Assembly: GCA_024195265.1 (NCBI GenBank)
Contig: JAJLRJ010000013.1
Coordinates: 9,523,832 to 9,587,831, forward strand
Direction of reading: 5' to 3'
Origin: Dendrophyllia cribrosa
Taxonomy: Eukaryota; Cnidaria; Anthozoa; Scleractinia; Dendrophylliidae
Length of the DNA stretch: 64,000 bases
A program made the translations under genes and the position numbers. This document shows, in pieces, positions 1-64,000 of the stretch. A model generated the notes under the pieces. That model saw nothing but the letters and a program-made list of their open reading frames with translations. It did not search any database and was not told where the DNA came from. Position 1 is the stretch's first letter. Each line of letters begins with the position of its first letter.

Positions 1-451
1 CTGAATAATCGACATCATGTTGCATTGCTATTTCATCAGTTCTTCCTGTAGGTTGGTCATATATTTCTAATATTTGGCCAGTTGTTGGGTCATATTTCAC
101 TTGACTCTTTAAATCATTATATGGGCCAGTATATTTATGGCCGGGTAATGTCCAACCGCCTTTTGGTTTCGGAAGCTTCCCAATGGCCTTATGAATATCA
201 ATCCCACTACCTTTATGCAATGGATCTAGTTTCTTACTAATATCTGAAGTTAAACTATCTAAGGCTTGATCCAAATATTTATCAGCCATTCCTTTTATTT
301 TTTGTTTAGCATAACCAGATTTAATTGCCTTTGATGCTCCGATTCTACCTAAATTATACAAACCTTTTAAAGCGCTTTTAGCTGCTATTTCACCAAGACT
401 GTGACTACCTTCTATATTTAAAAAGCCCCCATCTTGTGAGGGCTCAATTAG
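1..451 (-). CDS. Phospholipase A2-like (parvovirus VP1u-type) virion protein, partial
   Basis: The reading frame stays open from about 496 to the window edge at 1, so the C-terminus is missing. It contains the GPYNDL calcium-loop-like motif and, at the edge, the catalytic-type QHDVDY (HDxxY), the signature pair of viral PLA2 domains used in membrane breaching during entry. It matches the copy B protein (61220-61795) residue by residue over most of its length. Copy B has a Met at the N-terminus of this domain; here that position is Lys. The only upstream in-frame AUG (494-496) lies inside the zinc-ribbon gene. I therefore mark the start at the -1 frameshift site (451) where the zinc-ribbon frame would slip into this frame. 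An internal start near 288 is an alternative. The role in entry is inferred from the family. Confidence 0.75.
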
Positions 452-457
452 TTTCCC
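424..457 (-). promoter_or_regulatory. Candidate -1 ribosomal frameshift signal (copy A)
   Basis: Read on the minus strand: G GGA AAC (457-451) in phase with the zinc-ribbon ORF, then the stop codon (450-448), then an 8-bp stem AGCCCTCA / TGGGGGCT (444-437 and 431-424, one G-U pair) with a 5-nt loop. The spacer is 6 nt. A -1 slip enters the PLA2-like frame exactly. GGGAAAC is a known eukaryotic slippery heptamer. Copy B has the same heptamer and stop but a different stem sequence. Confidence 0.7.
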
Positions 458-609
458 TGTTTTTGTTTTATAAATTTGGTTTTTGTTATACCACATTCAG
501 CGCAAGTGCATTTCAACATAGTTCGACCATTTTTAGTTTTCACATATCGTTCGCTTCCTGGAACACATTCAGTGACTTTCTTCTGTCTAACACAATATGA
601 TTTTACCAT
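448..609 (-). CDS. Small zinc-ribbon protein (DUF5679-like)
   Basis: A 53-residue ORF starting MVKSYCV and ending just after a C-x-C-x2-C cluster (KCTCAECG). It resembles short DUF5679-type ORFs (YCV near the start, a GR-x-M/A-x-K-x-x-C-x2-CG core), although the first Cys pair is incomplete. The same gene, with the same length and neighbours, is present in copy B (61861-62019). Its last sense codons are GGA AAC, directly followed by the stop. With the preceding G this forms the G GGA AAC slippery heptamer, so a fraction of ribosomes could pass into the PLA2-like frame. The upstream TATATATAA stretch at 610-620 probably acts as promoter. Function is unknown; nucleic-acid or metal binding is a guess from the Cys pattern. 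Confidence 0.7.
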   Translation of the reverse strand: MVKSYCVRQKKVTECVPGSERYVKTKNGRTMLKCTCAECGITKTKFIKQKQGN

Positions 610-621
610 TATATATATAAG

Positions 622-37861: not shown

Positions 37862-39303
37862 AGAGGAGACCTGGTGAGAACCGATGATGATTGGCAGGAA
37901 TGGGAATTTCGTCAACTGGTCTTGGCCCTCAGAAAGTGGACAGAAAGAAACCTGCAGAAGCAGGACGACAGAGCCGTGGAAAAGCCTTCTTTAGGAGTCC
38001 AACCATTTATCCAGGCCAAGCAGCAAGAAACGAAGTCTAAACCATGCGTTTATTCTGAAGAGAGCGGACACAGACCTAACGATTGCGGCAAAGTTGCTTC
38101 TGTGGCGGAGTGAAAGAAAGTACTCATTGAGAAACAGCTGTGCTTCAACTGTGCTGGTACCAAGCACAAAGCTTTCGAATGTGGCAGTCAAGTGGGTTGC
38201 CTATTATGCAAACGAAGACATCATTCATCAATTTGTGACAGGGGATCAACAGAACACATGCCAGTAGCGACTGGAGATACAACAGTTACTTACCCGGTGG
38301 TAGTGGTGAATGTCGAAGCAATGAAGTGCCGGGCGCTGCTGCAAGATTTCCCCATCTGCAAGGTGTCATCATGGACGATACAGACGAGAAGGCAGAACTC
38401 CCGATACATCTAATACTTGGAGCCAGCGAATATGCGCGAGTGAAAGTAAACAGCATGCCACGAATCGGTAAACCGGGGGAGCCAATAGCGGAGCTAACTC
38501 GTTTTTGATGGACAATGATGTTCCCTGGGAAAGAAGTAGACTTGATCAACATGTTCTTGATACAGGCTTTCTTTTGTGATTACGAAAACCTCTGCAGACT
38601 TGATGTGTTAGGCCTAGAAGATACGAAAGTGGGAGACCAAGTAATCGTTTATGAAGAATTCAAAGAGCAGTTGAAGAGAATTCCACAAGGGTGGTACGAA
38701 GTTGATTTACCTTGGAAGGGCAATCATCCTCCTTTACTCAACAACGAAGCAGGAAGTTTGAAGAGACTTAATGCACTCACTAAGAGATTGGAAAAACAAC
38801 CGGGGATGCTTGAACGGTATGATTCCATGATTTAGGATCAGCTAGCCCAAGGTATCGTGGAGCGTGTGGAAAGTGAAGCAAAAGAGAGAGAATTTTACAT
38901 ACCGCATAAACCAGTCATCCGGGAAACAGCTGAAAGTACCAAGTTACGCATTGTCAATGATGCATCTGCAAAAGCAAGTGAAAAGGCCCCATCCTTGAAT
39001 GAATGCCTCGAGATCGGACAACCGACTCAAATCCAGCTATGGAGCGTCCTGGTGAGAAATCGTTTCCATCCCGTAGCTATCTCAGGTGATCTAAAGCAAG
39101 CATTTCTCCAAGTTCGAATCTGGGAACCAGACAGAGATGTGATGCGGTTTTGTAACACCCAGGAATTGCTCCTGTTATATGCTTTTTATTCACTCAACAA
39201 ACGATGCACTCGATGCGATCGCTACACGTGTCTCAGAACTATCCCACTGCGCATGTCCGCACTTAGACTAAAGTCTTACTGTGGGGGGAGACCACAGTTC
39301 TAA
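37862..39303 (+). pseudogene. BEL/Pao retrotransposon gag-pol remnant
   Basis: Broken frames in order. A gag end (WEFRQLVLALRKWTER) leads to zinc knuckles (CFNCAGTKHKAFECGS, CLLCKRRHHSSIC), then the Pao-type peptidase region (YPVVVVNVEAMKCRALL, LILGASEYARVK), then the RT N-terminal half (REFYIPHKPVIRE, KLRIVNDASAKAS, AISGDLKQAFLQV). In-frame stops (for example after SVAE near 38113 and at 38507) and frame changes show it is dead. The 3' half of pol and the LTRs are missing; it ends near the neighbouring Gypsy element. Confidence 0.8.
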
Positions 39304-39793
39304 ACATCTTACATATACTCCCCCTCTAGAAAAAAAATGTTTTCCACGACATTGAAGGGACAAAAAGTGTCCAAGTGACAAAGTTTGAAACGGCAGGGAA
39401 AAAATGACTAGAATATCAATAAATATATATGTCCAACGAGGGTCATGTCAAGCACTATTGCAGAAACAAAGTCTATCACTAGTTCATCATGTGTTCTGTC
39501 CAGGGCATCCAGCTTGGCAGCATGAATGGGGCAGGGCACCAAGGTGTCACCCAGTGTGCTGAATAAGGCCACTGACGGTGTGGTAGAACAACTGGAAGTG
39601 GCCAAGTACTTGAAACAACACTATATGGCCACTCAACCATAGGGTTTTGCTGGTTGGGATCAGTTGTGCAAGCATACACCGATGGCTGACCAATGGTATC
39701 ATACGTGATGCGTCTAGGCGACTGTCTCGCTCGCTGGGATCGTTGTCGTCCTTGTTGTGCTCCATCTGTTGCACTGGAAGCAGCCTGTCCTCT

Positions 39794-42700
39794 CTACACA
39801 TCAAACTGATTTGGGTCTAGTTCGGACTCATCATCACTGTCGCTTGAATCACTGGCATCATCCAGTCGGTCATGTCTCTGTGGAAGGCTACATGTAGGCC
39901 CTGAATTAGGCAGGTGGACGACAGCAGGGGCCGAGTGTTCCACTGGTAGGAAATTGCAGGGTAGGAGGAGGTTCCTGTGAACCGTTCGTGTACGACCTCG
40001 CTGGTTCTCTGGCTGAACTTCATACACTGGCAGGTCACCAACTTTCCTTCTCTCCACATGAACATGGTCTTCCCAGTGTGCCCTGAGTTTTCCAGACCCT
40101 CCCCTTTCTCTGAGGTTGCGTACTAGGACCTTGTCGCCTGGCTCAAGAACAGCGGTGTTGGTTCTTTGATCATACAACTCCTTATTCTTGGACGCCAGTT
40201 GTTGTGAACGTTGTTGTGCCAGCTGATATGCCTCAGTCATAACTGTTTTCCATCTCTTTGCATATTCTGGGTGGCTTGTAGGCGTGGGACATTCATTAAG
40301 GCCAAACATCAGATCCACTGGGATTCGTGGGTGGCGGCCAAATAGCAAGAAGAAGGGTGAGTACCCTGTTGCGTCATTCCTTGTACTATTATAAGCATGC
40401 ACCATCTTGTTGACATGGTCCTTCCACCTGGATTTCTGTGATTCTGGAAGAGTGCGTAGCATGGCAAGGAGGGTTTTGTTGAACCTTTCCGCCTGGCCAT
40501 TCCTTTGTGGGTGGTATGGTGTTGTGCGGGTCCTGATGGCTCCACGGTATTTTTCTAAACAATGGAATAGTTTGTTCTCAAACTCACGGCCCTGGTCATG
40601 GTGAATCCGATGGGAGATTCCAAAGCGGGGGATAAATCATTGAACAGTTTCTCTGTAGCTGTTCGAGTTGACTTGGTCAGCTGGGTACAGTATTCTTGGG
40701 CATATCGTGGAAAATGATCAACAATCACAAGAATATATTCATATCCTCCACTACTTGGCTCCAGATGCAGGAAATCGATAGAAATCAGTTCAAATGGAGC
40801 AGAGGAAGTAAGGTGATGCAAGGGAGCTTTGTTGGCACAGTTGGGTTTCTTCTGTTTCAGGCAACTACAGCTTCTTGTACAATAAAGTTCTATATCTTGT
40901 TGCATTCGTGGCCAGAAAAATCTGTCTCGAGCAAGTTGAAACACCCGACTGGAACCAAGGTGGCCCATTTCATTATGGAGTTGTTCCAGGACTGTGTGCC
41001 GATACTTCTGTGGTAATACATGCTGAAGTTTATCTCCCTTGCTTCTTCGTAAGATCTGGTCTTCACCCAGTGTGAGTCGTTCCCATTCCCGCATGAGCAC
41101 TCTCGTGCCTGGTGTTTCTCCTCTGTGTTCCAGTCTTGTAGGTCGTCTTCCTTTAATCTTGTAGGCTACTACTCTTCCGATGTCTCGATCAGCTCGTTGG
41201 TCATAGCGTAGTTGTCCATCATCTACTCTCTGTATGCCGGTAGAACTGAGGGCTTCCGTGTCATGAATATCCTGATTAACGAGCTCAATGTTCATTGTTA
41301 CTGAGGATATCCATGTTACATCCCCTTTCAGCCTTGATTTCACCATGTTAATGCAAGTTCTTATGGTTTCTTGAGAGGAGGACGCCGTGCACTGGTTCAT
41401 AAAGCTGTCAATGTCTCGTGGCATTCTGGACAAAGCATCGGCATCACCATTGGCTTTCCCAGGCCTGTATTTGATGTCAAACTGGAAATCGGCCAGTTCA
41501 GCCACCCAGCGATGACCGGTCGCATTAAGGCGAGCTGATGTCAATATATATGTCAAGGGATTATTATCTGTATAAACTGTGAATCCTGGAGAATAGTAAA
41601 GATAATCACGAAATTGTTCACAGACTGCCCACTTAAGAGCAAGAAACTCGAGTTTGCCAGCGTGTAAGTGATAGCCCTTTTCTGCTGAGGTCAAGGTCCT
41701 TGATCCATAGCCAATAACACGCATGATTCCCTTTTGTCGTTGATAAAGAACAGCGCCCAGTCCCTTAGCAGAGGCATCAGTATGGAGAATAAATGGTTCT
41801 TTGTAATCCGTGTATGCTAAGATGGGTGACTGTACCAAACAGGTGATGAGGTGTTCTAATGTTTGTTGGTGTACATTAGTCCATACAACTGGTATCTTAG
41901 ATGACTGCTGGCCCTTTCGTATGCCCTTCAGTCGAGGATGGGTAGTGGGTGCATTTGTCTTGTTACCATTTTCATTACTATCCTTTAACAGGTCAAACAG
42001 TGGTTTGGCAACGCGAGCAAAGTCCGGTATGTAACGACGGTAGTAACCCATTAAGCCTAACAGTCTGCGGACATCACCAAGACATTCTGGTGACGAGTCC
42101 TTAAGTTTAGTCACTGCCTCCACGTTTGCTGGGTCTGGGCGGTATCCTTGTTCCGATACAATGCTACCCAAGTAGTGCACATTTCTACGAAACAACTTAC
42201 ATTTCCGAGGCTTCAACTTGACACCCTTTGATTTGAGGCGTTGTAGTACCTTTCTGATATGCTCAACGTGTTCTTCAAATGAACGACTAAACACAATGAT
42301 GTCATCTAAGTAGGGAATACAGATTTCATCGCGTAGTCCATCTAAACAGCTCTCCATAAAGCGGTGGAAGAAGGCTGGGGCATTCATTAATCCAAACGGT
42401 GTTCGGATCCACTCATACAGTCCCCATGGTGTGATAAAAGCTGTAAGATGGCGACTGTCAGGACTAATGGTACCTTGGTGGTAAGCTTTCCCTTGATCGA
42501 GAGTAGAAAACCAGCTGTTACCTCCTAACTTATCCAATGTCTTCTGGACACGGGCAAGGGGTGTCGATCTGGTGTTGTTCTTTGATTCAGTTCCCGAAAG
42601 TCTACGCACAGTCTGAGTTCACCGTCTTTCTTGCGTACACACACTACAGGGGACGAATATGACGACTTAGACTTCCGTATCCAATTTCGATTCAGAAGAT

Positions 42701-43770
42701 CTTCGATGTACCTCTTCACTTCAGGAAATAAGGGGCATGGGATGGCTGTGTATGTCTTCTGAACTGGCCTGTCATCTGATAGCCTGATGGGCATTTCAAG
42801 GTCATCAATATAGCCAATATCCTCTTCACTTGAAGAAAATGCTTCAGCCTCTTCTTGTAGTAATTTAGTTGCAATGTCACGCTGTCGAGGAGACAGTCCG
42901 CACAGGTCAACTTCAGAGATCCATCCACTTTCTGCAGGTGGAACAATATCTCTTGGTTCATCAGGTTCACTGTGGAGAGGGGCAACATGGTTGGCGATCT
43001 CACTACATCGGCTAATATTGGTTGATTGATGATCCTGACAAGACTCTGGAGACTCTCGAAGTCTGACTTCTAAAGGAGTCCAATCTGGAGTCTTCCAAGG
43101 ACGGTATGCTGCCTCAATATTATTTGATGGTTGGAAGAATTGAACACAGGAATGCGGACTTTGAAAGAGGAACCTTGTGAAATCGAGAGCAGGGTTTCTT
43201 GGAGCTCTAACCCTGATGGCCATTGGGACTCTTCATCAGGCTCGAACGTCACTGGAGTTTGTCGTGCAATGTAGCCTGTATTTGCACGGCAGGGTACATA
43301 CACAGTACAACCCTTTGGGATCACAATATCACGTTTGCACGATCTAATGCTGCACAGTTCACTAGCACTCGAGGAAGATAGAAACTTTACCAGTGTTTCA
43401 GCCTTGGTCTCATCAACATTATCAAAGCTGGAGACAACACACTGTATGTCTGCATGCTTGCCTGCTTCAGTAGGTGATTTCAAAGTTGCACCTGTCACTA
43501 CCTCTTCTATGACATTGTATCCTATAAGCGGTGACTCCAGCTTCTCTTTTTTGACTAGGAAAGGAACAGTCAGATAATGGTCTGCCTCTGCGTTTAGCAG
43601 GTGGAATTTCAGTTCAACCCAGCCCTCATATGGTATTATCGTACCATTTGCTGCACGAAGTTCAATTCTTTCATCCAGCAAGTTCTCAATTGGTTGTACA
43701 TTTTCATCCGGTAAATTTTGAGCTAATCGAAGGGTAGAAATGATGGAAACTTGGGCTCCCGTATCCTACA
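39794..43770 (-). pseudogene. pol: Gypsy pol: protease, RT, RNase H, integrase
   Basis: The aspartic protease starts DTGAQVSIIS (about 43750), preceded by a stop. A protease/linker ORF spans 43070-43681. RT begins at 42525-43223 ([22 protein letters not shown]) and continues, after a frame change near 42540-42600, at 40555-42609 with YLDDIIVFS (catalytic YLDD). RNase H of the Ty3 type follows ([26 protein letters not shown]), then the zinc-binding and core domains of integrase ([23 protein letters not shown]). The integrase core is broken near 40630, and its C-terminal part is the open frame 39794-40462 (GYSPFFLLFGRHPRIPVDL). Order RT, RNase H, integrase fixes Gypsy rather than Copia. Confidence 0.85.
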
Positions 43771-43906
43771 ATGCATCAGTTTTGACATCATTAATATGAC
43801 AGTGTACCATGCATCTCTTGCCCATAAGTTTTGTAACAGTGGCATGTTGCTTTGGAGTTAGGTGACTGCCATAAACATGTTGATCTGTACTGTCTCCACC
43901 TCCATA

Positions 43907-44206
43907 TTAGAGACCTTGATCATGTGACATTAAATGATTGATTGCCTTGCATAGAGGTTTATGTTCCAGCCACTGCGACCGCTGACAAGTTCTTGAACAG
44001 TACTTAACGGCATGACATCCTTCACATTCTTTAAATTCACTCTCTGATTCGACAGCTTGGCAGGTGTTGCAATGACGCAGGGACGAATGTTGATTTGAAG
44101 GCCCGGCTACTCCCTGTCCCGTGGTCGTAGCCCCCACCGGTTTCCCGACATTGGCCCTTGGACATTCTTGCGGCATCCCCTGGCATATTGTTCTGTACTG
44201 CCACAA
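43907..44206 (-). pseudogene. MYND zinc finger within the Gypsy element
   Basis: CNTCQAVESESEFKECEGC, then AVKYCSRTCQRSQWLEHKPLC: the complete MYND pattern (C-x2-C ... C-x2-C ... YC-x3-CQ ... W-x2-H-x3-C). It lies between gag and protease in the same orientation and is likely part of the element's polyprotein. MYND fingers bind proline-rich peptides, so a host-factor or targeting role is possible. A stop follows at 43907. Confidence 0.75.
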
Positions 44207-45051
44207 CGAAAACAGTGATCACACCGTGTGAGGTTTCCAGTCCTCTTGCACTCCTGACATGCAGGCAATCGCCCTCTGTCCTGCCTTGGCTGAGAATATG
44301 GCTTCTGATTGGCAGCAATAGTACTCATAGCCTCTCGTAGTGATGCAACTTCGGCGACCTGATCAACAAGCCCTTTTCCCCGTTCCTTTGGGGTGTCCTT
44401 TATCTGTTGGTCACCAGTATCTGGGGTAAGGACTTGATTGCAGGTTACTTTGGACCCACGCTGCTTTTCGCCCGACAGAAATTTCATTTTGCGTTCTTGT
44501 TCCGCTGAGGCAGCAATGTTCAGTTCTTTGATCAACTCTTCGTCGGATACAGATGGTTTTTGAGGTAAGGGACACATTTTGATCCTCACAACATCATCCT
44601 GTAGGCCAGTTTCAAGGCAATGAAGGAATAAACTCTGCACTAATTGACGATCATACTTGATTGTCACATCAGCCTCTTTTGAAGCGAACAAGATCTTCTG
44701 ACGCAACTCCAGTGCTTTCATTAGAAATGTCTGTGGCTCCTCCTTTGGGGACTGGGTGAGAGAAGCAAGTTGCTGGTATAACTCTGTGGCATTGCTCTCC
44801 CTAAAGTGGGAGCGTAAGATTTGTCTAAGTCTGGCCAATGTAAGCTCTGGAGTTGACTCTAAATAAGACCGCAGTGGCATACAAGGGCTGATAGCTCGAA
44901 TTACAGCATCAATGATTTCGTTCTCTTGATAGCCCTTTGCGAGTGCGGACTCGATCTGCCTTACAAGGCTGATAAACGACAATTTGTCTTCAGCTCCCGG
45001 TGCACCAATTTGGCCCCTGATTTTGAATTCCCGGCGAAACAGTTTATTCAT
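44107..45051 (-). CDS. gag: Gypsy gag-like polyprotein N-terminal ORF
   Basis: A 314-residue open frame. A capsid-like helical region (FRREFKIRGQIG..., LARLRQILRSHFRE, SPKEEPQTFLMKALELR) is followed by a CCHC-type knuckle CFRCGSTEQYARGC in which the expected His is Gln, so zinc binding is doubtful. The downstream MYND-finger ORF is in the -1 frame relative to this one and overlaps it (43907-44206). In an active relative this could be a frameshift junction, but the element is degraded, so it may simply be mutation. Confidence 0.7.
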   Translation of the reverse strand: MNKLFRREFKIRGQIGAPGAEDKLSFISLVRQIESALAKGYQENEIIDAVIRAISPCMPLRSYLESTPELTLARLRQILRSHFRESNATELYQQLASLTQSPKEEPQTFLMKALELRQKILFASKEADVTIKYDRQLVQSLFLHCLETGLQDDVVRIKMCPLPQKPSVSDEELIKELNIAASAEQERKMKFLSGEKQRGSKVTCNQVLTPDTGDQQIKDTPKERGKGLVDQVAEVASLREAMSTIAANQKPYSQPRQDRGRLPACQECKRTGNLTRCDHCFRCGSTEQYARGCRKNVQGPMSGNRWGLRPRDRE

Positions 45052-45773
45052 GTCAACTGGGACCCACTAGCTGTCTTACCTCCACTGTTTCCCTCTGGGT
45101 TGACCAAACTAGAGTTGGATTCATGCACTTGATGTGAAGCCAATATTTCTGTATGTTCGGTTTGATCTTTCGAGTTGGGGGGATAGAGTACCGAAGTGTG
45201 ACGTCACACTTGTGAAATTATGGGATTTGATTAGATATTCGGAAAGGGCATGACGAAAAATGCCCGCTTGCCAAAAATCAGCATCTTATTGCAATATGGG
45301 GGTGAGATATTGGCACCGTTATGCTCTGATGACTCCATACAAACCTTTCTAATTTTTGCCTTGGTTCATTACGTAATGCAGTGACTGCTCGAGAGCAGAT
45401 GAAAGCTATAGCTAGCGCTAAAGACGACGACGATTGATTTGACTAAATGAACGTTCAATGAGACATCGTGTTTTGTTCGCTGATCTCTAGAAACATTCAG
45501 TTTTAAATATGTATTTGCCCATACGCTTAGTCAAATAGGGGGAGTATATGGAGAACTTAGGTGATTGTGTGACGCTTGCGTGACTGAATGAACTTTGATT
45601 GGATCTGTCAAGATCTGTCAACTGATAGCTGTCTAGTTTACTCTGTAATCATGTGTAATTTTAGACTTAGGAACCCTAGCGTGGGAAGAAAAGGTTGTTG
45701 TGTAATCACTTGTGATCGGAGAGCATTAAACAGGATTGTGACAGTTCTCATGCGTCTGTTTTTGTCGAGATCT
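45052..45773. other. No gene seen; probable LTR or leader of the Gypsy element
   Basis: Region upstream (minus-strand sense) of gag. GGGGGAGTATATGGAG at about 45536 resembles GGGGGAGTATATGTAAG near the element's other end (reverse complement at about 39315-39330), hinting at LTR edges, but I could not align full LTRs. Confidence 0.35.
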
Positions 45774-55201: not shown

Positions 55202-58200
55202 TTATATTTTGTAATGCCCGTATGCATAGCTTGTTATTCCATCTTCTAGTATATATCTTTTGTCATCAAAACAGCTTAGTGAGACCTTATTTATCTTATA
55301 ACTAGCTATTTGATGGTTTTGGCTTATTATAGTTTTCATTTTATGATACATCTGTTTATTATTGAATAGAGTATCTTTATAGTTTCCATGTTGTATGTCC
55401 TTTCTGATAACACTCTTTTTGTTGCCTTTAGCAGTCTTCCCCCCCAATTGGTTGTCTTTTATATATGAGTACATTTTTGATCTCAATCCAACGAATTCAG
55501 TAATTGATATACCTGCCGCCTCATCTTTGAATTTACAAATTACTTTTTTATTTGTCTTGTCAAAATATTGTGAATCTTGAGCATAATCACTGTTATCGAA
55601 TCTGTTTCTATCCTTCCAGAAGTCTGAGTAGACATCTTCAGCTTCGATTTCATATGTAAGACTATCGGTGTCGGTAAATAGCAGCTTAGCTTTTTCTCCA
55701 TACTTCTTTTTTATGTAGTTATAATGAAAATCATACATTAATGTCTTACTAAGATCTAGGATACACATACCCACATAAGCCGGCCTGTTTAGGGTTAGTG
55801 TCTCTTTAATCTTATGAATCGCTACAAGGTTTTCATTGAAGATCTTACTGCTAACATACGTTGGTTTAGCTGCCATTATTAATAGTTTCTTTTCATCAGT
55901 CACTAATCTAACATCCACCCGTTTTCTGATGTTTTCCATAGTTTTTCCGAAGACTGAATTGTTCATTAATTTAAAAAAGTCTTTTTCAAAAGCATTTTTG
56001 GCGTTCTTCCTTTTTTCTGTATTAAAGTCGATATACTGTTTTAACCAAGGGGATTGATTAAATTCAAGCACTCGATGGACTTTGGTTACTTTCAAACCTA
56101 GATCAGTGTATAATTGTAGGTTCCTGTAATGCAGTACATACTTTTCTTTGTTGTTCAAAGTTGGGATCAATTTATGGACCAAACCTGTTGATATATTATA
56201 TTTCACCGCAATGGTTTTAGCATAATCTGATAGCATGTCTTTTGTTACACTAACCTTTTCCGGCCCTAATGGATAGTCGTTATGCGAAACATGCAATTCT
56301 CTGGGATATTCTAGATCGACTTCTAGTATTAAACCTTTCTTACTATCTTCTTTATACTTGGCTAAGTCTATTTTATCAATCTGACTGTTTGTCATCCATC
56401 TAAAACCGCCAGTAGGTAGGTATTGTGACATGGCCCAGCCATACAGATTATTAGCGTCAAGATACATGATATACTTTGAGGGCGCCTTCTCATCGTATGA
56501 TTTCATATACTTATTGTTTGCCTTGCCGTATCGATGGGCTATGTATGATATACCACCCCTCATACCTTTTTCAATAAATTGGAACATATCGATGTCTGTC
56601 ATTAGTTCCAATTTGATATCAGTCATTTTAAGCATAGCATCCCAAGACAAACCTGGAGATGTGAAATAATGGCATGGATCTAATATGTAGTATTCTAGAC
56701 ATGTTTTCCTAAAGTTTTCAAATACATCAGCTAATAGGAGGATGTCAGATTTAAGGTATAAGTCATGGTACTCACCCATATCTTGAAGATTGAATGTATT
56801 CCACACATTTTGGGCATGCTTGTAATCTTCATCTGATATATGCTCATTATTCAATATGCTGTAAAATTCTTCTTTCGGTGGTAGCTTTTCATTGAATTTA
56901 TCGAAACTGTCTATATAGTCATAAGGATAGACTCCTTTTTGTGACATTAAATCAAGCTTTTTACCTTTGAATTTTTGAGAGGTATATTTTAACGATTCTT
57001 TTGGCAGATTACTAACTAGTTTTTCTAAACTGGAACTCATAAACTGGAAACTATCAAGAAAGGTCAAGTGATTACCCAACATGAAAGCCATATACTTCTC
57101 CATGTTGTTAGGTATAGCATTAATAATCATCTGTTTCTCTTCTCCTTTATTATTTTTGTATGTGTGTTTCTTAACAATAGCCCCAATCTCTTGCATTATA
57201 AAATGACTATCATAACCTCTTAGATTATGGAATATAACAGGAATTTTTATCTTTGATGGGTCTATTTTGAGTTGTAAATTGCATTCCTGATGGGCAGAGC
57301 CTCTATACCGGCCAGTAATATGACAATGGTCTCGAACTTGAATGTCCTTATCAGTATATTTTTTATTACAAATATGACATTCTTTGGCTTTTTGAAATTC
57401 CTCTTCATCATCTTTTGTCATTTTTAATGGTTTGTTAAATTCCTTTTTTATAATATTTTTACAATATTTGACCTCTTCTATCATTTTTTCCATGAATTTG
57501 TACACAGCCTTTTCACCCCTATATATCTGCACTGGTTTTGTATATTTATCATCATAACAACAAACTACCTTAAATCCAAAACTACAAGTTATATGCTTCT
57601 GGTATGCTTCAGTATATGATTTATCATTATTAGGTTGACAACCGGATATCTTTTCTGTTAAAGCCTCAAAATCTGCATATATGACAAATGGTACAGGCTG
57701 TTGTTTTTGGAAATTATTGAATTTTAATATGTTGTTATCTTTGTCAGGCATTTTTATAGCTTGTTTACCGTTGAGTTGCATACAGTTTTCTTTGTGATCA
57801 GTCAACACTCTTTCAGAATTAAAACATTGAAGACAATGCATACAGAAGTGCTTCCTTTCCTTGTGTTTTGTCTGATTGTACATTAATTTGTCAAAGTCTT
57901 TTATTAATACATAATGCTTATTTTCATTTTCTGTTATCAGAAGCAGATTAATACAGTCTTCATATTTTTCTTTTGAGACATAAATTGGGTATGGTTGTTT
58001 TTCTTCGTATCCAAATACATTGATATTGATATTATTCTGTTTCTCAATTTTATTATACTGTTTAGTGGTCACTGGGAATTCAATCCCCGAATAATCTAAA
58101 TTTTCAATGAATTGCTTGTCAACTTTTTTAATTCTCTGTGGGTATTTGTCTTGAGGATTCAAATGTCTGATGTGACACCATCTGAAGCATTCATTATCCT

Positions 58201-59173
58201 CATTTTTCATATTAATCAATCCCTTTGCACTATTTCTTAGTTCTTGAGGTAAGTTAATGTATGAAGAGCCTCTCATTGGTTGAAATTTCACTATGTTAAG
58301 ATAATGATTATCAACAGATTGAATAGTCCAACCAGATCCTTCTGAAATCCAAACTGCGATCTTGTTTAATATGTTTTGCTTTGACACTTGTAGTGATTCA
58401 GTGATCTCTAGATTGTTTATGATTGTTTGGGGTATACTGTTGAAATAAGCAGTTTTATATATTGTATTTCCATTTGACTCTTTTTCAAATGTAACCACAA
58501 GCGTTTCAATAAATTTTAGACCCTTCATATCAGTTAGTATACTTATAATGTGATATGCGACTGCCTTTCTTGTGTTTTGGAGTTGTACTAGCGGGTCTTT
58601 GTTATTTTTTATACTAATTTTAAAAGACTTTGTATAGCCTTTCAGAGCTTTATCAACTTGCTCTATTTTAGTCCTTGGTGTTGGGACTGGTATCTTAGTC
58701 CTTGGTGTTGGGACTGGTTTTTTGGTTCTTGGTGCTGGCACTGGTTTGTAATCATCCCTGAATTCTAATGGCGGTGGAATGATATTTTCTTCATATGCTT
58801 GCACCATCTGCTTTACATTCCTCCGAGGAGTGGGGATTGGTTTCCTTGGTTTGTAACCCTCCTTGAAGGCTGGTAGTGGTGGAATGATATTGTCTTCATA
58901 TGCTTGCACCATCTGCTGTACATTCCTCCGAGGAGTGGGGATTGGTTTCCTTGGTTTGTTATCATCAATTTTAGACTGCTGTTGTATATATTGATGCCAC
59001 AACAGTTTTATTTGTGCATTCTGCTGTAACAACATGTTGATTAGCTTAGATTTGCTTTGTTTCTTGAGAGTATTCTTATCCATACTACTAGTTGAGATAA
59101 TTTTTTTGCTTGCGTGGCGCGATGCTGGCATCAGACTGCGGCCTGATGTGTTATTTTTCTTATTTGTTGTCAT
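55202..59173 (-). CDS. polB: Protein-primed DNA polymerase B
   Basis: 1323 residues, intact. The N-terminal tail (about 75-175) has five to six proline-rich PxPTPR-type repeats. A conserved cnidarian-Polinton region follows, with a C2H2-like finger near 445 (FCMHCLQCFNSERV). Exonuclease motifs: FVIYADFEAL (about 498), FHNLRGYDSHF (about 650) and YLKSDILLLADVF (about 805). An endonuclease VII-like zinc module lies between ExoI and ExoII (CHICNKKYTDKD, DHCHITGRYRG, HQECN; about 594-634). Polymerase motifs: YLDANNLYGWAM (A, about 906), KLMNNSVFGKT (B, about 1072) and FTDTDSLTYEI (C, about 1166). It replicates the element from a protein primer. Divergent from the HNH gene with an 89-base shared promoter region. 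Confidence 0.93.
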   Translation of the reverse strand: MTTNKKNNTSGRSLMPASRHASKKIISTSSMDKNTLKKQSKSKLINMLLQQNAQIKLLWHQYIQQQSKIDDNKPRKPIPTPRRNVQQMVQAYEDNIIPPLPAFKEGYKPRKPIPTPRRNVKQMVQAYEENIIPPPLEFRDDYKPVPAPRTKKPVPTPRTKIPVPTPRTKIEQVDKALKGYTKSFKISIKNNKDPLVQLQNTRKAVAYHIISILTDMKGLKFIETLVVTFEKESNGNTIYKTAYFNSIPQTIINNLEITESLQVSKQNILNKIAVWISEGSGWTIQSVDNHYLNIVKFQPMRGSSYINLPQELRNSAKGLINMKNEDNECFRWCHIRHLNPQDKYPQRIKKVDKQFIENLDYSGIEFPVTTKQYNKIEKQNNININVFGYEEKQPYPIYVSKEKYEDCINLLLITENENKHYVLIKDFDKLMYNQTKHKERKHFCMHCLQCFNSERVLTDHKENCMQLNGKQAIKMPDKDNNILKFNNFQKQQPVPFVIYADFEALTEKISGCQPNNDKSYTEAYQKHITCSFGFKVVCCYDDKYTKPVQIYRGEKAVYKFMEKMIEEVKYCKNIIKKEFNKPLKMTKDDEEEFQKAKECHICNKKYTDKDIQVRDHCHITGRYRGSAHQECNLQLKIDPSKIKIPVIFHNLRGYDSHFIMQEIGAIVKKHTYKNNKGEEKQMIINAIPNNMEKYMAFMLGNHLTFLDSFQFMSSSLEKLVSNLPKESLKYTSQKFKGKKLDLMSQKGVYPYDYIDSFDKFNEKLPPKEEFYSILNNEHISDEDYKHAQNVWNTFNLQDMGEYHDLYLKSDILLLADVFENFRKTCLEYYILDPCHYFTSPGLSWDAMLKMTDIKLELMTDIDMFQFIEKGMRGGISYIAHRYGKANNKYMKSYDEKAPSKYIMYLDANNLYGWAMSQYLPTGGFRWMTNSQIDKIDLAKYKEDSKKGLILEVDLEYPRELHVSHNDYPLGPEKVSVTKDMLSDYAKTIAVKYNISTGLVHKLIPTLNNKEKYVLHYRNLQLYTDLGLKVTKVHRVLEFNQSPWLKQYIDFNTEKRKNAKNAFEKDFFKLMNNSVFGKTMENIRKRVDVRLVTDEKKLLIMAAKPTYVSSKIFNENLVAIHKIKETLTLNRPAYVGMCILDLSKTLMYDFHYNYIKKKYGEKAKLLFTDTDSLTYEIEAEDVYSDFWKDRNRFDNSDYAQDSQYFDKTNKKVICKFKDEAAGISITEFVGLRSKMYSYIKDNQLGGKTAKGNKKSVIRKDIQHGNYKDTLFNNKQMYHKMKTIISQNHQIASYKINKVSLSCFDDKRYILEDGITSYAYGHYKI

Positions 59174-59262
59174 TAATAATTATTACTCACCATCTCCTTA
59201 AGTCAAAATGGGTTTTTATTTTTTCCAATCTGATATAAAGAAATGGTTCTTTTTTATATGTA

Positions 59263-60015
59263 ATGACAACAATAATGACAATCAATGAGTGCGTTTATCG
59301 TGTTCACCAATATTATGACCTATATGGGGCTGATAAGGATGGATATATCATCAATATTATCAAAAAAGTACCGATGAAAGGGGTCAAGAGACGTGACGGC
59401 TATCTTTCATGTAATGTTAGAAAATACTGTGGTAACCAAAAAACAATGAGCATCCATCGATTCATCTGGGAATGTTTCAATGGTCCTATACCAGAAGGTA
59501 AAGTGATTGACCATATCAATAATAAGAAGGATGACAACCGCCTTTGTAATCTACAGCTTGTTACACAGCAACAGAATTGTAAGAAGGCTGCTAAGCATCG
59601 TGATTATTCATTTGTTGCTCAAAATCATAAAAACAGGAAATGCGTGAAAGCTACTAATTTGACCACTAAAGAAGTTACATTTTATAATAGCATGCATGCC
59701 ATTCAACAACATATTGGTATAAATGCCGGTATTGTTAAGATGGTGTGTGAGGGGCTCAATAACTGTAAATCAGGCCGATCAAAGACGGATGGCCATTATT
59801 ACACATTTCAGTATATCAAAAAAGAAGAATTACCAGATCACTACAAGAGATCAGCTAATAAAAAACCAAAAAGAGTATCAGATGAAGATAAGAGAGAAAC
59901 TATTAAGAAATGGTTAGATAAGGAATATATATGCCCAAAATGTGACAAGGTTATCAAAAATAAAAGCAAATATATTCATATGAAAATATGTGTAATAGAT
60001 ACCCAGAAACAATGA
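59263..60015 (+). CDS. Free-standing HNH endonuclease with NUMOD-like and zinc-finger parts
   Basis: A 250-residue HNH protein. The core is SIHRFIWECFNGPIPEG (His 65), VIDHINNKKDDNRLCNL (Asp83-His84, Asn 96), the HNH_3 pattern of phage homing endonucleases. A NUMOD1-like DNA-binding segment follows (CVKATNLTTKEVTFYNSMHAI, split by a loop). The C-terminus has a CCHC finger (Cys224, Cys227, His239, Cys243). It is the only plus-strand gene in this part and sits between polB and integrase, the classic place for a selfish endonuclease that cuts element copies lacking it. ATG at 59263 was chosen; a second in-frame ATG is four codons on. Convergent with integrase. Confidence 0.85.
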   Translation: MTTIMTINECVYRVHQYYDLYGADKDGYIINIIKKVPMKGVKRRDGYLSCNVRKYCGNQKTMSIHRFIWECFNGPIPEGKVIDHINNKKDDNRLCNLQLVTQQQNCKKAAKHRDYSFVAQNHKNRKCVKATNLTTKEVTFYNSMHAIQQHIGINAGIVKMVCEGLNNCKSGRSKTDGHYYTFQYIKKEELPDHYKRSANKKPKRVSDEDKRETIKKWLDKEYICPKCDKVIKNKSKYIHMKICVIDTQKQ

Positions 60016-60253: not shown

Positions 60254-60302
60254 ATGCCATGGTTTTTTCATTATACTATATACATAATATATTCTTATAT
60301 AT

Positions 60303-61262
60303 TTATAGTGCGTTTAAATCCTTCATTGGTATCCAGCTGTTAAAATCATCACTATATCCCTTCCACTTCACCAAAGCTTGCTTCTTTTTATAATCTCTCC
60401 GAATGACTTTATCAATACGGAAAACATCCTGCTTTGCTTTTAATAGTTCAGGTTCATAAAAACTCCCTTGTATGTCTTCACCTCTGAGATCTTTTACTTT
60501 GTATGTTATTGGATTAGTGTATTGGATCTTATCAACTGTAAACACTTCTTCTGTCCAATTTGGTGTGTAACTCTTGTCAAACACATTCCGTTTATACTTA
60601 GATATTCGGACCTTATCACCTATTTTAAATTTTGGTTTCTGTTTTAATGTTTCTATATCACCATACAAATTGAAGTAAACAGTTCCTTCATTCCTCTTAT
60701 CAGATGCTTCAACGGGTGTCATCTTTATGCTTGAATGTTTTGTGTTGTTGTACTGTTTTACTAGTTTGGGGAGCATATCTAAATACTGTGTATTGCCTTG
60801 AACAGTGAACTGCTTCCACATTTTAGACTTGATTGTCCTATTCCATCTTTCAACTATTGATGACTTCTCTTCATTCTCAGTTGAGTACATATGTATCCCA
60901 TTTTTCTCTAATAGGTCTTTCACATGTTTGTTATAGAATTCTGTTCCCTTGTCAACCCATAGATATTGAGGTTTTCTGCCTTCCTTGAATATTGTTTTGA
61001 ATGCTTCAGTGATAGATTCGCCTTTCTTATCCTTCAATGGGACAATCCAACCATATTTGCTGAAGACATCAATAACCATAGGAAGATATCGATAACCTTT
61101 ATTCCATTTACTAAACTGTTGCATTTCAACTAGATCACTTGCCCATATTTCATCAATATAATTTGTGATTACACGCCGTCGAATGAAGTTGCGTTTTATG
61201 GGTGCATGTAACTCATCAGCTAATTTTTCTTGCCAGTTTTCTTCACTCGACGGCTTTTTCCG
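60303..61262 (-). CDS. int: Retroviral-type integrase with chromodomain (entered by -1 frameshift)
   Basis: Polinton integrase of the DDE type. First Asp in IWASDLVEM, second in LWVDKGTEF, Glu in ENEEKSSIVERWNR. A C-terminal SH3-like part (KFKIGDKVRISKYK) and a chromodomain (VIRRDYKKKQALVKWKGY, DFNSWIPMKDL) end the protein. The frame is open from an upstream stop near 61299, but the first AUG (61124) lies after the first catalytic Asp, so translation must begin earlier. No AUG exists between the stop and that Asp. I start the feature at the codon read after a -1 slip at 61262 from the PLA2-like frame, giving about 319 residues. Non-AUG initiation or splicing are alternatives. It inserts the element into host DNA; the chromodomain may direct it to marked chromatin. 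Confidence 0.85.
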   Translation of the reverse strand, partial: RKKPSSEENWQEKLADELHAPIKRNFIRRRVITNYIDEIWASDLVEMQQFSKWNKGYRYLPMVIDVFSKYGWIVPLKDKKGESITEAFKTIFKEGRKPQYLWVDKGTEFYNKHVKDLLEKNGIHMYSTENEEKSSIVERWNRTIKSKMWKQFTVQGNTQYLDMLPKLVKQYNNTKHSSIKMTPVEASDKRNEGTVYFNLYGDIETLKQKPKFKIGDKVRISKYKRNVFDKSYTPNWTEEVFTVDKIQYTNPITYKVKDLRGEDIQGSFYEPELLKAKQDVFRIDKVIRRDYKKKQALVKWKGYSDDFNSWIPMKDLNAL

Positions 61263-61268
61263 TTTTTT
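61175..61268 (-). promoter_or_regulatory. Candidate -1 ribosomal frameshift signal, PLA2-like to integrase
   Basis: On the minus strand: A AAA AAC (61268-61262), in phase with the PLA2-like ORF (codons AAA at 61267 and AAC at 61264); a 7-nt spacer GGAAAAA; then a 14-bp stem GCCGTCGAGTGAAG (61254-61241) pairing with CTTCATTCGACGGC (61188-61175), with one G-U pair and a 52-nt loop. Slipping by -1 leads straight into the integrase frame. AAAAAAC with a 5-9 nt spacer and a stable stem is the standard retroviral design. Confidence 0.8.
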
Positions 61269-61864
61269 GAAACTCCGAGACCTAGTTTCTGTTTCATATC
61301 AATCGTGTTCCTAGCCAACCAATGCCCCCATTGTCTCTGATCATATGGTATTTCATCTAAAGCTTTGACCATTTTTCGGTCTGCCTTATTTTTACATTTC
61401 CTGTCATCCTTACAAACAGAATAATCAACATCATGCTGCATAGCAATAGTATCTGTTTTACCTGTTGGTTGATCATATATTTCCAATATTTCACCAGTAT
61501 TAGGATCATATTTCACTTGACTATTCAAATCATTATAAGGCCCAGTATATTTATGACCTGGTAATGTCCAACCACCTTTTGGCTTAGGTAGCATCCCAAT
61601 GGCCTTATGTATATCAACAGCACCACCATGAAGAGGGTCCAGTTTTCGGCTTATATCACCAGTAAAACTGTCAAGCGCTTGATCCAGATATTTGTTAGCC
61701 ATACCTTTTATTTTTTGTTTAGCAAAATCTGATTTAATAGCCTTTGAAGCACCAATTCTCCCAAGATTAAACAACCCATTAATACCAGCCTTCATAGCTA
61801 TTTCACCAAGACTGTGGGAATTTGCTATATCAAATAAGCCCGCCCCTTCAGACGGGCCTTTTAG
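61220..61864 (-). CDS. Phospholipase A2-like (VP1u-type) protein
   Basis: The viral PLA2 signature is complete here: GHKYTGPYNDLNSQV (calcium loop), then AMQHDVDYSVCKDDRKC (HDxxY catalytic pair with flanking Cys), in the middle of the protein. A basic tail (SKNGKSRRVKKTGKKN) ends it. The frame can start at Met 61795 (191 residues) or be entered from the zinc-ribbon ORF by a -1 slip at 61864, as drawn. LHGG-A fits an adenain cleavage site, which could free the enzyme part. Its 3' end overlaps the integrase frame and carries the second slippery site. In parvoviruses this domain opens endosomal membranes; the same entry role is inferred. Confidence 0.82.
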   Translation of the reverse strand, partial: LKGPSEGAGLFDIANSHSLGEIAMKAGINGLFNLGRIGASKAIKSDFAKQKIKGMANKYLDQALDSFTGDISRKLDPLHGGAVDIHKAIGMLPKPKGGWTLPGHKYTGPYNDLNSQVKYDPNTGEILEIYDQPTGKTDTIAMQHDVDYSVCKDDRKCKNKADRKMVKALDEIPYDQRQWGHWLARNTIDMKQKLGLGVSKNGKSRRVKKTGKKN

Positions 61865-61870
61865 TTTCCC
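61836..61870 (-). promoter_or_regulatory. Candidate -1 ribosomal frameshift signal, zinc ribbon to PLA2-like (copy B)
   Basis: G GGA AAC (61870-61864) in phase with the zinc-ribbon ORF, stop codon at 61863-61861, then a hairpin AAG-G-CCCGTC / GGCGGG-CTT (61860-61851 with 61844-61836; one bulge, one G-U). The spacer is 3 nt to the outer pairs or 7 nt to the CCCGTC core. Same layout as copy A (424-457) with a different stem sequence. Confidence 0.75.
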
Positions 61871-62019
61871 TTATTGGAGACAAATCGGCTTTTTATTATT
61901 CCACAAGAAGAACATTGTGATTTCAACATCAATCGATTGTTTCTAGTTCTTACATATCGTTCAGAACCAGGTACTGATTCCGTCTGTCGTTTTTCCTTCA
62001 CGCAATATGTTTTGACCAT
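61861..62019 (-). CDS. Small zinc-ribbon protein (DUF5679-like)
   Basis: 52 residues beginning MVKTYCVKEKRQTESVPGSE and containing SQCSSCGIIKSRF. Only one Cys pair (C-x2-C) remains certain, fewer Cys than the copy A version (C-x-C-x2-C). The ending (GN then stop) and the slippery heptamer are conserved. ATG at 62019 follows TATATAA immediately. As the first frame of a possible three-part polyprotein it may serve as the N-terminal domain of the PLA2-like and integrase products. Confidence 0.7.
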   Translation of the reverse strand: MVKTYCVKEKRQTESVPGSERYVRTRNNRLMLKSQCSSCGIIKSRFVSNKGN

Positions 62020-62032
62020 TTATATATATAAG
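62020..62032 (-). promoter_or_regulatory. TATA-type start-proximal promoter
   Basis: ACTTATATATATAAATGG on the minus strand joins the TATA-like run to the start codon of the zinc-ribbon gene, with TAAATG at the ATG. Copy A has the same element at 610-621 (TATATATAATGG). Similar motifs precede the ATPase, membrane protein and penton genes. Confidence 0.45.
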
Positions 62033-62521
62033 TTAGATATTTCTAAAATAATTTTCGATGAATCTCACGTTCTTCATTGTGTCATATATATCGAACACTT
62101 CCAATAAATCATTATAAGATACCCCCTTATTCATTTCGTTCAGAAAGTATAAACAGAAGTAGCCACATGTAGACGTTTTTATGTTTTGGATTTGGTTGTT
62201 TTGGTGAAGCAGTGTCATCTTCCTTCTTTTCGCATGATTTACGATCTCTTGAAATGGAGGCATACCAAAACTGTCAAAATAATTTATCACGTTGTCTTTT
62301 ACATAAGTTGTAACCCAATGAGATCCTGCCATATAACTAGGTTCTAGATTGTAAATAAATAATGCTTGGCTATGATTATGTGGAACTCTTTCATCCCTTG
62401 ACAGAACATTATTGATTGGGATGTTTAAATATTTGCACCAATGTATTAGATTGTGATTACTTAACGGGATGTCTTTGTGGAATTTTATACTATTTGGCCG
62501 AGTAATGGTATCGAATTCCAT
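62033..62521 (-). CDS. Adenain-type maturation protease
   Basis: 162 residues, intact. Catalytic set: His68 (AGSHW), Asp83 (NYFDSFG), Gln112, Cys119 (TSTCGYF); the Gln-Cys distance of seven matches adenovirus protease. The length is somewhat shorter than adenain (about 200). It should cleave pVI-like, PLA2-like and core precursors at xGG-x sites in the immature particle. The start ATG lies inside the end of the pVI-like gene (37-base overlap, -1 frame). The segment 62123-62299 is nearly identical to copy A. Confidence 0.9.
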   Translation of the reverse strand: MEFDTITRPNSIKFHKDIPLSNHNLIHWCKYLNIPINNVLSRDERVPHNHSQALFIYNLEPSYMAGSHWVTTYVKDNVINYFDSFGMPPFQEIVNHAKRRKMTLLHQNNQIQNIKTSTCGYFCLYFLNEMNKGVSYNDLLEVFDIYDTMKNVRFIENYFRNI

Positions 62522-63321
62522 GTTTTGTTTTGTGGGGTACCTAGGAGACCTGTTAGTAGACCTTTTCCCTTTTTTTTTCTTTGGAGCTTTTTTTTTTTAA
62601 TCCCCATACCTATCGTATTATCAGGCCAATTCCCATAAAATGGAGGTGGTCGTCTATATGCACCAATTCTCGGAGCTCCATGACCTCCCTTTTTCTTAAT
62701 AGCACCCATTCGAGGGGCACCACTTCCGCGTTTTTTAAGCATAGCATCCATTATTAATGGTATACCGATTGAAGCTAGCAAGGTGCCCAGGAAGCCACCT
62801 GTTTGGGTTTTTGTAGGCTTCACATTGACACCTGAACCTGATTGGAGGGCATTTAAGATATCCTTCTTCTGTTTCATCGTTAAAAGATGCTTATATTCTA
62901 TAAGCTTATCAATTTTGTCTTGTGGTATGAGAAATCCACCTGTCTGAACACCACTCCCGGATATTGCTCGAACCACTTGAGAAGCCCCTTCTGAAGCCAA
63001 CCCTCCTAAAGCTGCTAAACCAAGGGTTTTACCAATAGTAGGTAAAGCAGCACGTCCAAGGCTTAGAATGGTAGTCAATAAACTTCCGCCGACTTGTCTT
63101 TTGATATTAGTCTTAGCCAGCTTAATGTCCATCCCTTTCTTCAATAACCGATTCTTCTCCAATCTATTCACAACCGTCTGTGGGACATATAGAGTATCCT
63201 TCCCGCGGAGAGAGTCCTTTGTCAGCCTTAGAACAATCGTTTCCCTCTTATGGTAGGCATTGCTAAGATTCTTCTTTTGATTTTCTGATAGTTTCACATT
63301 AATCTCATAAAGTTGAGTCAT
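62485..63321 (-). CDS. pVI-like / pX-like virion protein
   Basis: 278 residues from the Met at 63321, chosen because it aligns with the copy A start (MTQL); the frame is open 15 codons further upstream. Same plan as copy A: basic N-terminus, RQVGGSLLTTIL and GFLGTLLASIGIPL hydrophobic stretches each just after a GG, then GSGAPRMG, HGAPRIG and PDNTIGMGIKKKK. Three adenain-type sites (QVGG-S, QTGG-F twice) are at the same places as in copy A. The C-terminus is longer (KGLLTGLLGTPQNK...) and overlaps the protease start. Likely an internal, membrane-active capsid protein. Confidence 0.7.
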   Translation of the reverse strand: MTQLYEINVKLSENQKKNLSNAYHKRETIVLRLTKDSLRGKDTLYVPQTVVNRLEKNRLLKKGMDIKLAKTNIKRQVGGSLLTTILSLGRAALPTIGKTLGLAALGGLASEGASQVVRAISGSGVQTGGFLIPQDKIDKLIEYKHLLTMKQKKDILNALQSGSGVNVKPTKTQTGGFLGTLLASIGIPLIMDAMLKKRGSGAPRMGAIKKKGGHGAPRIGAYRRPPPFYGNWPDNTIGMGIKKKKLQRKKKGKGLLTGLLGTPQNKTWNSIPLLGQIV

Positions 63322-63400
63322 TTTGTTGTATATATTATATGTTATATAATTCTGGTTACAAAACATATATTATATAAGGAATATCTTATTACTTTTGGTA

Positions 63401-64000
63401 CTATACAATAACCAATTCATTACCTACCTTGTCAATGACAACTGTTTCATCATATAGGACGATAGCATGTATGTTGAAAGGACTGTCTCCAGCACTATTA
63501 GCATTGAGTTTATACCTAAAAATCAACTGTTTGGGGTCTCTTGTTACTTTCTCTGCTTGATATGATAGATCGAAATAGATTAGTGGATAGAGACTATTAT
63601 AATTAGCTAGATTCAACTGGGTTCCGGTGTTGTAATCAGTCCTTCTCATTGCATAAGACATTAAATCGTTGAAGATTCTTACTTTACTCTCACTGTCATA
63701 CTCTGTTTCTGGGTAGAAAACTCCATTTCCATATTCTAGACGACATGTTGTCAAATAACTACCATTTCCACGATCGGCATTTAGGTTGAAAGTATCAAAT
63801 TCGTATGGATTGGTCTCTGAATTGTTTGATTTAGCTCGTTGCAGGTACACAAAAATCGCTTTAACATTGTCAATACTAGAAGAAATCTGGAAGAATCCAC
63901 TACTATGTGTTGGTGCAGACACTTCATACATTTCTCTGAGATACGTCCACTCACTTGGTTTCAAATAAGAGCTGATGAATTCATTATACAAACTGTCCTT
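63401..64000 (-). CDS. Major capsid protein, C-terminal part (cut by window end)
   Basis: About 200 C-terminal residues of the capsid protein, with no frame break. Matches copy A throughout: LREMYEVSAPTHSSGFFQIS, FYPETEYDSESKVRIFNDL, TQLNLANYNSLYPLIYFDL and the ending IDKVGNELVIV. The frame is open through 64000, so the N-terminal half lies outside. The intact state confirms that the breaks in copy A are specific to that copy. Confidence 0.78.
   Translation of the reverse strand, partial: KDSLYNEFISSYLKPSEWTYLREMYEVSAPTHSSGFFQISSSIDNVKAIFVYLQRAKSNNSETNPYEFDTFNLNADRGNGSYLTTCRLEYGNGVFYPETEYDSESKVRIFNDLMSYAMRRTDYNTGTQLNLANYNSLYPLIYFDLSYQAEKVTRDPKQLIFRYKLNANSAGDSPFNIHAIVLYDETVVIDKVGNELVIV

Follow-up and report, generated by a model that had tools for sequence, protein, structure and literature searches.

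MMTV- and HTLV-type retroviruses express gag-pro-pol by two-step −1 frameshifting. The PLA2 of parvovirus VP1u is a minority product that arises via alternative starts or splicing, not by frameshifting. For adintoviruses, −1 frameshifting has been suggested near the 3′ end of Penton, with a similar relation between Hexon and Adenain, using KnotInFrame (frameshifting passages of PMC11071296). The initial annotation of the locus described here knew of no such arrangement in Polintons. No report of a ZR-PLA2-integrase frameshift was found in the accessible text of the open-access literature, a scope that does not take in the founding adintovirus paper (veaa055); the predictions for Penton and Hexon-Adenain are in print.

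The locus lies at the right end of the window, by which we mean the whole stretch of 64,000 nucleotides of Dendrophyllia cribrosa DNA analysed here. Three frames on its minus strand, encoding a zinc ribbon (ZR), a PLA2-like protein and an integrase (INT), are chained by two successive −1 steps. In our opinion, the cassette is probably translated from one message via two successive programmed −1 ribosomal frameshifts, a reading to which we assign a probability of roughly 0.87.

The cassette and the element that carries it

The features of the cassette in the window (copy A), followed by the corresponding part of a second copy (copy B), are these:

61861..62019, minus strand: ZR, a zinc-ribbon ORF in the zero frame, 52 aa plus stop; PF18930 DUF5679, 34.8 bits (cut-off 27)
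61863-61861, minus strand: ZR stop codon, from the frame parse
61864..61870, minus strand: G GGA AAC, slippery heptamer of junction 1, in phase and adjoining the ZR stop; its class is conserved in copies
61836..61859, minus strand: predicted junction 1 hairpin; z −3.9, rank 1 of 143
61220..61870, minus strand: PLA2-like frame, 216 codons open plus stop, −1 relative to ZR; PF08398, 38.5 bits (cut-off 23.9)
61262..61268, minus strand: A AAA AAC, slippery heptamer of junction 2, in register with the PLA2 frame; conserved in copies
60303..61298, minus strand: INT frame, 331 codons open plus stop, −1 relative to PLA2
61122..61124, minus strand: first AUG of the INT frame, after WASDLVE
448..621, minus strand: copy B, open ZR frame including its stop, with G GGA AAC at 457-451

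The minus-strand coordinates confirm the annotated succession of frames (0, −1 and −1 again), with in-phase heptamers at 61870-61864 and 61268-61262. The end of A AAA AAC is 39 nt from the PLA2 stop. At junction 1, the predicted hairpin begins 4 nt past the heptamer and its G+C core 6 nt past it. The PLA2 frame of copy A has a stop codon directly upstream of G GGA AAC, so that the first shift in this copy is possible only at that heptamer. Copy B is incomplete and does not reach junction 2; its PLA2 frame contains an additional upstream AUG, which the stop excludes from copy A by cutting off the same stretch, and the copy A frame indeed lacks the Met available to copy B, as had been annotated. 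The INT frame matches PF00665 rve (36.4 bits, cut-off 32.6) and PF00385 Chromo (32.4 bits, cut-off 25.1). Its first AUG follows the Asp of WASDLVEM, presumably the first catalytic Asp of INT, which agrees with the earlier claim that no AUG precedes that residue.

Under the frameshifting reading, the majority of ribosomes would terminate after the 52-residue zinc-ribbon protein. A minority would slip at the heptamer before the ZR stop, aided by a hairpin 4–7 nt downstream, and produce a ZR-PLA2 protein (266 residues in copy A); part of these shifted ribosomes would slip again at A AAA AAC to yield an integrase fusion of 572 residues. Arithmetic on the coordinates gives predicted lengths of 52, 266 (52+214) and 572 residues. 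Two of the lengths first proposed, 52 and 572, are thus retained, whereas the third, 253, corresponds to the residue where translation meets junction 2, the unshifted product ending at 266. That ribosomes shift at both sites, and at what frequency, we infer from the sequence.

Two further ORFs bear on the identity of the element:

55202-59179, minus strand: family B DNA polymerase ORF; PF03175 DNA_pol_B_2, 59.9 bits
5642-6283: packaging ATPase of copy B; PF04665 Pox_A32, 41.2 bits

Judged by its integrase (rve plus chromodomain), polymerase and ATPase, the element is of Polinton type. Above cut-off, the three frames of the cassette match only DUF5679, PLA2 and rve/chromo, with no reverse transcriptase or gag match. 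The putative adenain-type protease gives PF00770 E values of 0.018 and 0.0035, both below the cut-off of that family, and has no PDB sequence match; PHROGs and PDB sequence searches were uninformative. Capsid candidates at 2304-3185, 3729-4304, 62485-63369 and 63401-64000 have no Pfam match, and their capsid names are assumed or assigned by position. Several other features of the window may be recorded here. Residues 585-636 of the polymerase ORF also match Endonuclease_7 (PF02945), just over cut-off. An HNH endonuclease ORF (59239-60015, plus strand; PF13392, 61.1 bits, with a weak NUMOD1 match) sits between polymerase and integrase. The ORF at 9508-10179 (minus strand) has a Pox_VLTF3 match just under cut-off (23.4 vs 25 bits), and the ORFs at 38509-45066 resemble, by eye, a decaying gypsy-type LTR retrotransposon.

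Heptamers and predicted hairpins in copies, and fused relatives

All copies compared come from the host genome (627 Mb, 22 contigs). We examined 101 cassette copies: A and B of the window, 39 others from a DNA search and 60 chosen for diversity. The DNA search scored 40 of 784 first-look candidates, and the 39 copies are all the others it returned. The diversity set was hand-picked from 80 matches and from among the matches listed of 222; single-frame fusions are over-represented in it, because the search that gave the 80 matches used such a fusion as query. The copies are mosaic and related to one another: single linkage at 85% groups them into 10 clusters at junction 1 (82 copies) and 5 at junction 2 (78 copies). 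A PLA2 protein search of the genome scored 150 of 1055 candidates; 27 of these 150 matches share a score of 403.5 bits, which suggests recent bursts of amplification. Three equal-score PLA2 matches (C1:37489577, 37499385, 37509191) lie about 9.8 kb apart, resembling a tandem array.

The initial annotation expected conserved heptamers, conserved stems and a lack of AUG codons in related overlaps. The first of these is borne out. ZR and PLA2 stand in a −1 relation in 82 of the 101 copies; of the rest, 8 unite the two in a single frame, 8 are decayed or related in another way, and in 3 a ZR was not found. A canonical heptamer lies directly 5′ of the ZR stop in 66 of the 82 (37 G GGA AAC, 16 T TTA AAC, 13 T TTA AAA); the count is 66, not the 67 reported by the script, because in L037 the match, GGGTTTT at a later stop, arose by chance. 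This copy and L018 carry T TTA AAC at the true site and have lost the stop. Imperfect heptamers account for 14 of the 82 (12 A TTA AAC, 1 A TCA AAC, 1 T TCA AAC). Among distinct 75-mers at junction 1, 45 of 51 contain one of the three canonical forms, which interchange between copies. By comparison, ten other ORFs of the window contain canonical in-phase heptamers at 21 of 3527 codons, and the PLA2 and INT ORFs of 41 copies, with junction 2 sites counted, at 128 of 21859, a background of 0.6% of codons. The PLA2 frame is open for just 0–2 codons 5′ of the heptamer in 60 of the 82, a count that, like those of AUGs and GG sites below, keeps L018 and L037 although they are mis-anchored; the shift therefore cannot happen much earlier.

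At junction 2, PLA2 and INT are in a −1 relation in 79 of the 101 copies, in one frame in 13 and decayed or otherwise related in 8, with copy B not reaching the site. A AAA AAC is in phase within the overlap in 78 of the 79. In L106, a copy that is decayed beyond this point, the position is occupied by an in-phase G GGA AAC.

The expectation of conserved stems holds for junction 1 and in part for junction 2. After exclusion of L018 and L037 from the ranking, a hairpin is predicted in all 32 distinct junction 1 sequences (30 nt after the stop codon), starting 4–7 nt past the heptamer, and its local stability ranks first in 31 and second in 1 among windows of the same copy. This spacing agrees with that of the stimulatory stem or pseudoknot, about 5–9 nt downstream, of canonical eukaryotic −1 frameshift signals. 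The stems are of several types, namely GCCAGUCA/UGGCUGGC with variants, GCCCGUC/GGCGGGC, GAGCCCUCA/UGGGGGCUU and GCCCUCA/UGGGGGC, with a weaker one in L102. L096 and L097 have identical flanks and different stems, each self-complementary. Rfam gave no match at E up to 1 over 60300-63400.

Covariation was assessed on hand-chosen rows, 9 and 10 sequences for junction 1 and, for junction 2, 5 of 26 that align without gaps; the GCCCGUC family enters solely through L097, because its register is off by one base. In the first stem family, 100% of cells are paired vs at most 56.9% when slid, a comparison that favours the true register, as do those below, because the structures were derived from the same sequences; a single pair is changed on both sides, which 210 of 500 shuffles equal. 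The second group has 95.7% of cells paired (at most 65.7% when slid) and two pairs changed on both sides, a number reached by 23 of 500 shuffles, with a covariation score reached by 1 of 500. Taken together, the comparative evidence makes a very strong case for programmed −1 frameshifting at junction 1.

At junction 2, a hairpin within the lowest 5% of local windows is predicted for 14 of the 26 distinct sequences, which represent 48 of 78 copies; its onset is 5–6 nt downstream, and AGAUUUUGAGU/ACUCAAAAUCU is an example. In the five gap-free sequences, 92.7% of cells are paired vs at most 49.1% when slid; three pairs are changed on both sides (reached by 24 of 500 shuffles), and the covariation score is reached by 3 of 500. 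None of the other 12 sequences, the window's included, has a hairpin that passes this threshold, and in the window copy no stem was found at this junction (75 nt, z 0.5; 45 nt, rank 44 of 113). The missing stem in these 12 sequences is the weakest point of the junction 2 case.

Relatives of the three proteins are numerous. Protein searches returned 6711, 675 and 2114 matches, the best 120 of each being listed; named sources among the matches listed are Oculina patagonica, Stylophora pistillata and Corynactis coral adintovirus. The PLA2 motif is present in 233 of 330 proteins compared. By pattern, 23 of the 233 unite ZR, PLA2 and INT in one frame, 44 PLA2 and INT and 53 ZR and PLA2, with 113 showing neither fusion; the pattern misses some members, e.g., P0003 and P0067. 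Fused relatives and −1 copies together indicate that there may be two routes to the same chain, genomic fusion and, for most copies here, two −1 steps. Eight copies of this genome have ZR and PLA2 in a single frame: L031 and L092 are without heptamer and without hairpin, while L014, L015, L036, L078, L079 and L083 retain the hairpin, so that loss of the signal after fusion is seen in 2 of 8 only. In L092, the stretch from ZR to the PLA2 core is much shorter. Overlapping PLA2 N-termini of relatives read GK[LR] in 21 of the 24 listed and KKL in 1, a possible trace of junction 1 that is a lead only, because the search pattern itself required [GFKP]K. No DNA relative in other species was found when viral contigs were searched with the integrase, the PLA2 and alignment A1, or genome contigs with A1; cross-species evidence is therefore at the protein level only.

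Start codons, selection and rival explanations

The foremost alternative, which we consider improbable, is that internal initiation, whether by leaky scanning or by termination-reinitiation at the ZR stop, starts PLA2 and INT independently, the heptamers being incidental. For PLA2, a possible start AUG is present in 53 of 82 copies (at codon 8 past the heptamer in 43, at codon 3 as UAAUG in 4 and upstream in 6), and the deposited PLA2X of Corynactis coral adintovirus (P0145) starts at such an AUG; however, 29 of the 82 have none. For INT, the expected lack of AUGs held in most copies but not in all: 58 of 78 are without an AUG in the open frame 5′ of the heptamer, and the other 20 have one 20–31 codons upstream. 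The requirement for frameshifting thus appears less strict for PLA2 than for INT. The first INT AUG after the heptamer is 47–53 codons on in 77 of the 78, and the stop-free stretch between the heptamer and the first Met yields 33 distinct peptides, 32 of which extend beyond the presumed catalytic Asp (in L097, a Met comes before it). The first INT AUG also lies within a selected stretch. Over the last 36 codons before the INT Met, compared in ten chosen copies, dN/dS is 0.07–0.28 in pairs without synonymous saturation, and saturated pairs have pN 0.21–0.32 vs pS 0.78–1.04 over the same codons. These values indicate that the AUG-less part of INT is under purifying selection as protein, which speaks against internal initiation at the downstream AUG; the heptamers and hairpins are likewise left unexplained by it.

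Splicing, somewhat less probable again, could also connect the frames. Among distinct stretches, 49 of 58 at junction 1 and all 54 at junction 2 contain frame-compatible GT..AG pairs separated by at least 25 nt, and one junction 2 pair, 32 nt apart, is common to 36 of the 54. Such pairs, however, occur by chance, and a check of the sequences finds the most shared junction 1 pair in 21 of 58 only. The common junction 2 pair would make a very short intron and would remove conserved residues around an invariant Trp in alignment A1, and splicing offers no reason for in-phase heptamers followed by hairpins. Least probable of all is restoration of the junction 2 frame by transcriptional slippage instead of by the ribosome: the site has six A, and a seventh genomic A occurs exactly there in 7 of the 11 junction 2 single-frame copies of this genome that were inspected, but six A are short for such slippage, L106 has G GGA AAC, a hairpin at frameshift spacing is predicted in 14 of the 26 distinct sequences, and the explanation is inapplicable to junction 1 with its G GGA AAC.

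Programmed −1 frameshifting at both junctions is thus the preferred reading. For junction 2, the case is strong on the heptamer, the missing AUG and selection, and mixed on structure. The original proposal of two −1 frameshifts in a gag-pro-pol-like series finds support in the heptamers, the ubiquitous junction 1 hairpin and the AUG-less INT frame.

Candidate proteolytic sites, a possible third junction and known systems

Three further features in or near the cassette are relevant to the processing of the predicted fusions and to a possible additional junction:

61838..61852, minus strand: SEGAG, at the position of the GG-type site in other copies, without the M/I/L of the adenovirus motif
62485..62596, minus strand: possible third junction, an overlap in −1 between the minor-capsid frame (63369-62485) and the adenain-like frame (62596-62033)
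62596-62590, 62578-62572 (A AAA AAA) and 62569-62563 (G GGA AAA), minus strand: in-phase heptamers of the third junction

According to the relevant passage of PMC3386624, adenovirus protease recognises (M/I/L)XGX-G and (M/I/L)XGG-X. A site of the form xxGGx or xxGxG falls in the first 13 codons past the junction 1 heptamer in 80 of 82 copies; 74 of 78 parsed single-frame ZR-PLA2 relatives also have one, both counts being made with no null control. With M/I/L required, 44 of the 82 copies fit (43 MAGGF, 1 MTGGF); the commonest site among relatives is MQGSG (18). The element's own protease may cleave ZR from PLA2 at these conserved GG sites.

Copy A of the window and 4 of 7 other loci show a −1 overlap between the minor-capsid and adenain-like frames, L004 having them in one frame (L001-L008). 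Of 40 further pieces (L108-L147), 18 are in −1, 7 open throughout, 6 in shift 1 and 1 in shift 0, with 8 unresolved. An in-phase canonical heptamer, mostly A-rich, is present in 15 of the 18 −1 pieces; given the composition of this lysine-rich linker, A-rich heptamers are to be expected. In 14 of the 18, the opening 75 codons of the protease frame contain no Met, and the protease frame of copy A has a Met ahead of the conserved part. A third −1 junction joining minor capsid to protease is likely on these data, with less certainty than the other two.

That the fusion proteins enter particles, and INT is thereby packaged, is a sound hypothesis. A broader reading can be put forward tentatively, with somewhat less than an even chance of being correct: three −1 frameshifts (minor capsid to protease, ZR to PLA2, PLA2 to INT) would make all three enzymes mainly as rare products attached to structural proteins or to proteins that bind nucleic acid, packaged thereby and freed by the protease, so that the integrase would accompany the DNA genome into the next cell. 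If the two-frameshift reading of the cassette is correct, a virus-like DNA element of an animal has reached the retroviral way of dosing its integrase and of tying it to particle proteins, and gene models started at AUG codons would miscall PLA2 and integrase in such elements. According to PMC8097293, Maverick particles had not been observed; the junction peptides would offer a direct test for such particles. Natural copies that exchange heptamers and stems also constitute a rich comparative panel for frameshift signals.

Each of the known systems resembles the cassette in some respects only. The prediction for adintovirus Penton and Hexon-Adenain (PMC11071296) concerns the same broad element group and likewise places −1 slippery sites near ORF 3′ ends, but the genes are other ones, the cases are called hypothetical there, and ZR, PLA2 and integrase are absent from its frameshifting passages. 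The Corynactis coral adintovirus PLA2X (P0145), compared by protein only, is homologous to the PLA2 described here, and its C-terminal KNGKSRRVKKSGKKN reads through an A AAA AAC-like site; unlike the cassette, it is deposited as a separate protein, with its AUG inside the ZR overlap. If the frameshifting model is right, the cassette shares with parvovirus VP1u a PLA2-like domain (PF08398) on a minority product that has the same start as an abundant one, whereas the route here would be frameshifting. The parallel with gag-pro-pol of MMTV and HTLV would comprise two nested −1 shifts from one start, the heptamers A AAA AAC and G GGA AAC, a downstream structure, and integrase in the longest and presumably rarest product. 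Unlike these viruses, the carrier is a DNA element with a family B DNA polymerase, in which a zinc ribbon and PLA2 replace gag and pro. The element works like gag-pro-pol, but it is not a retrovirus.
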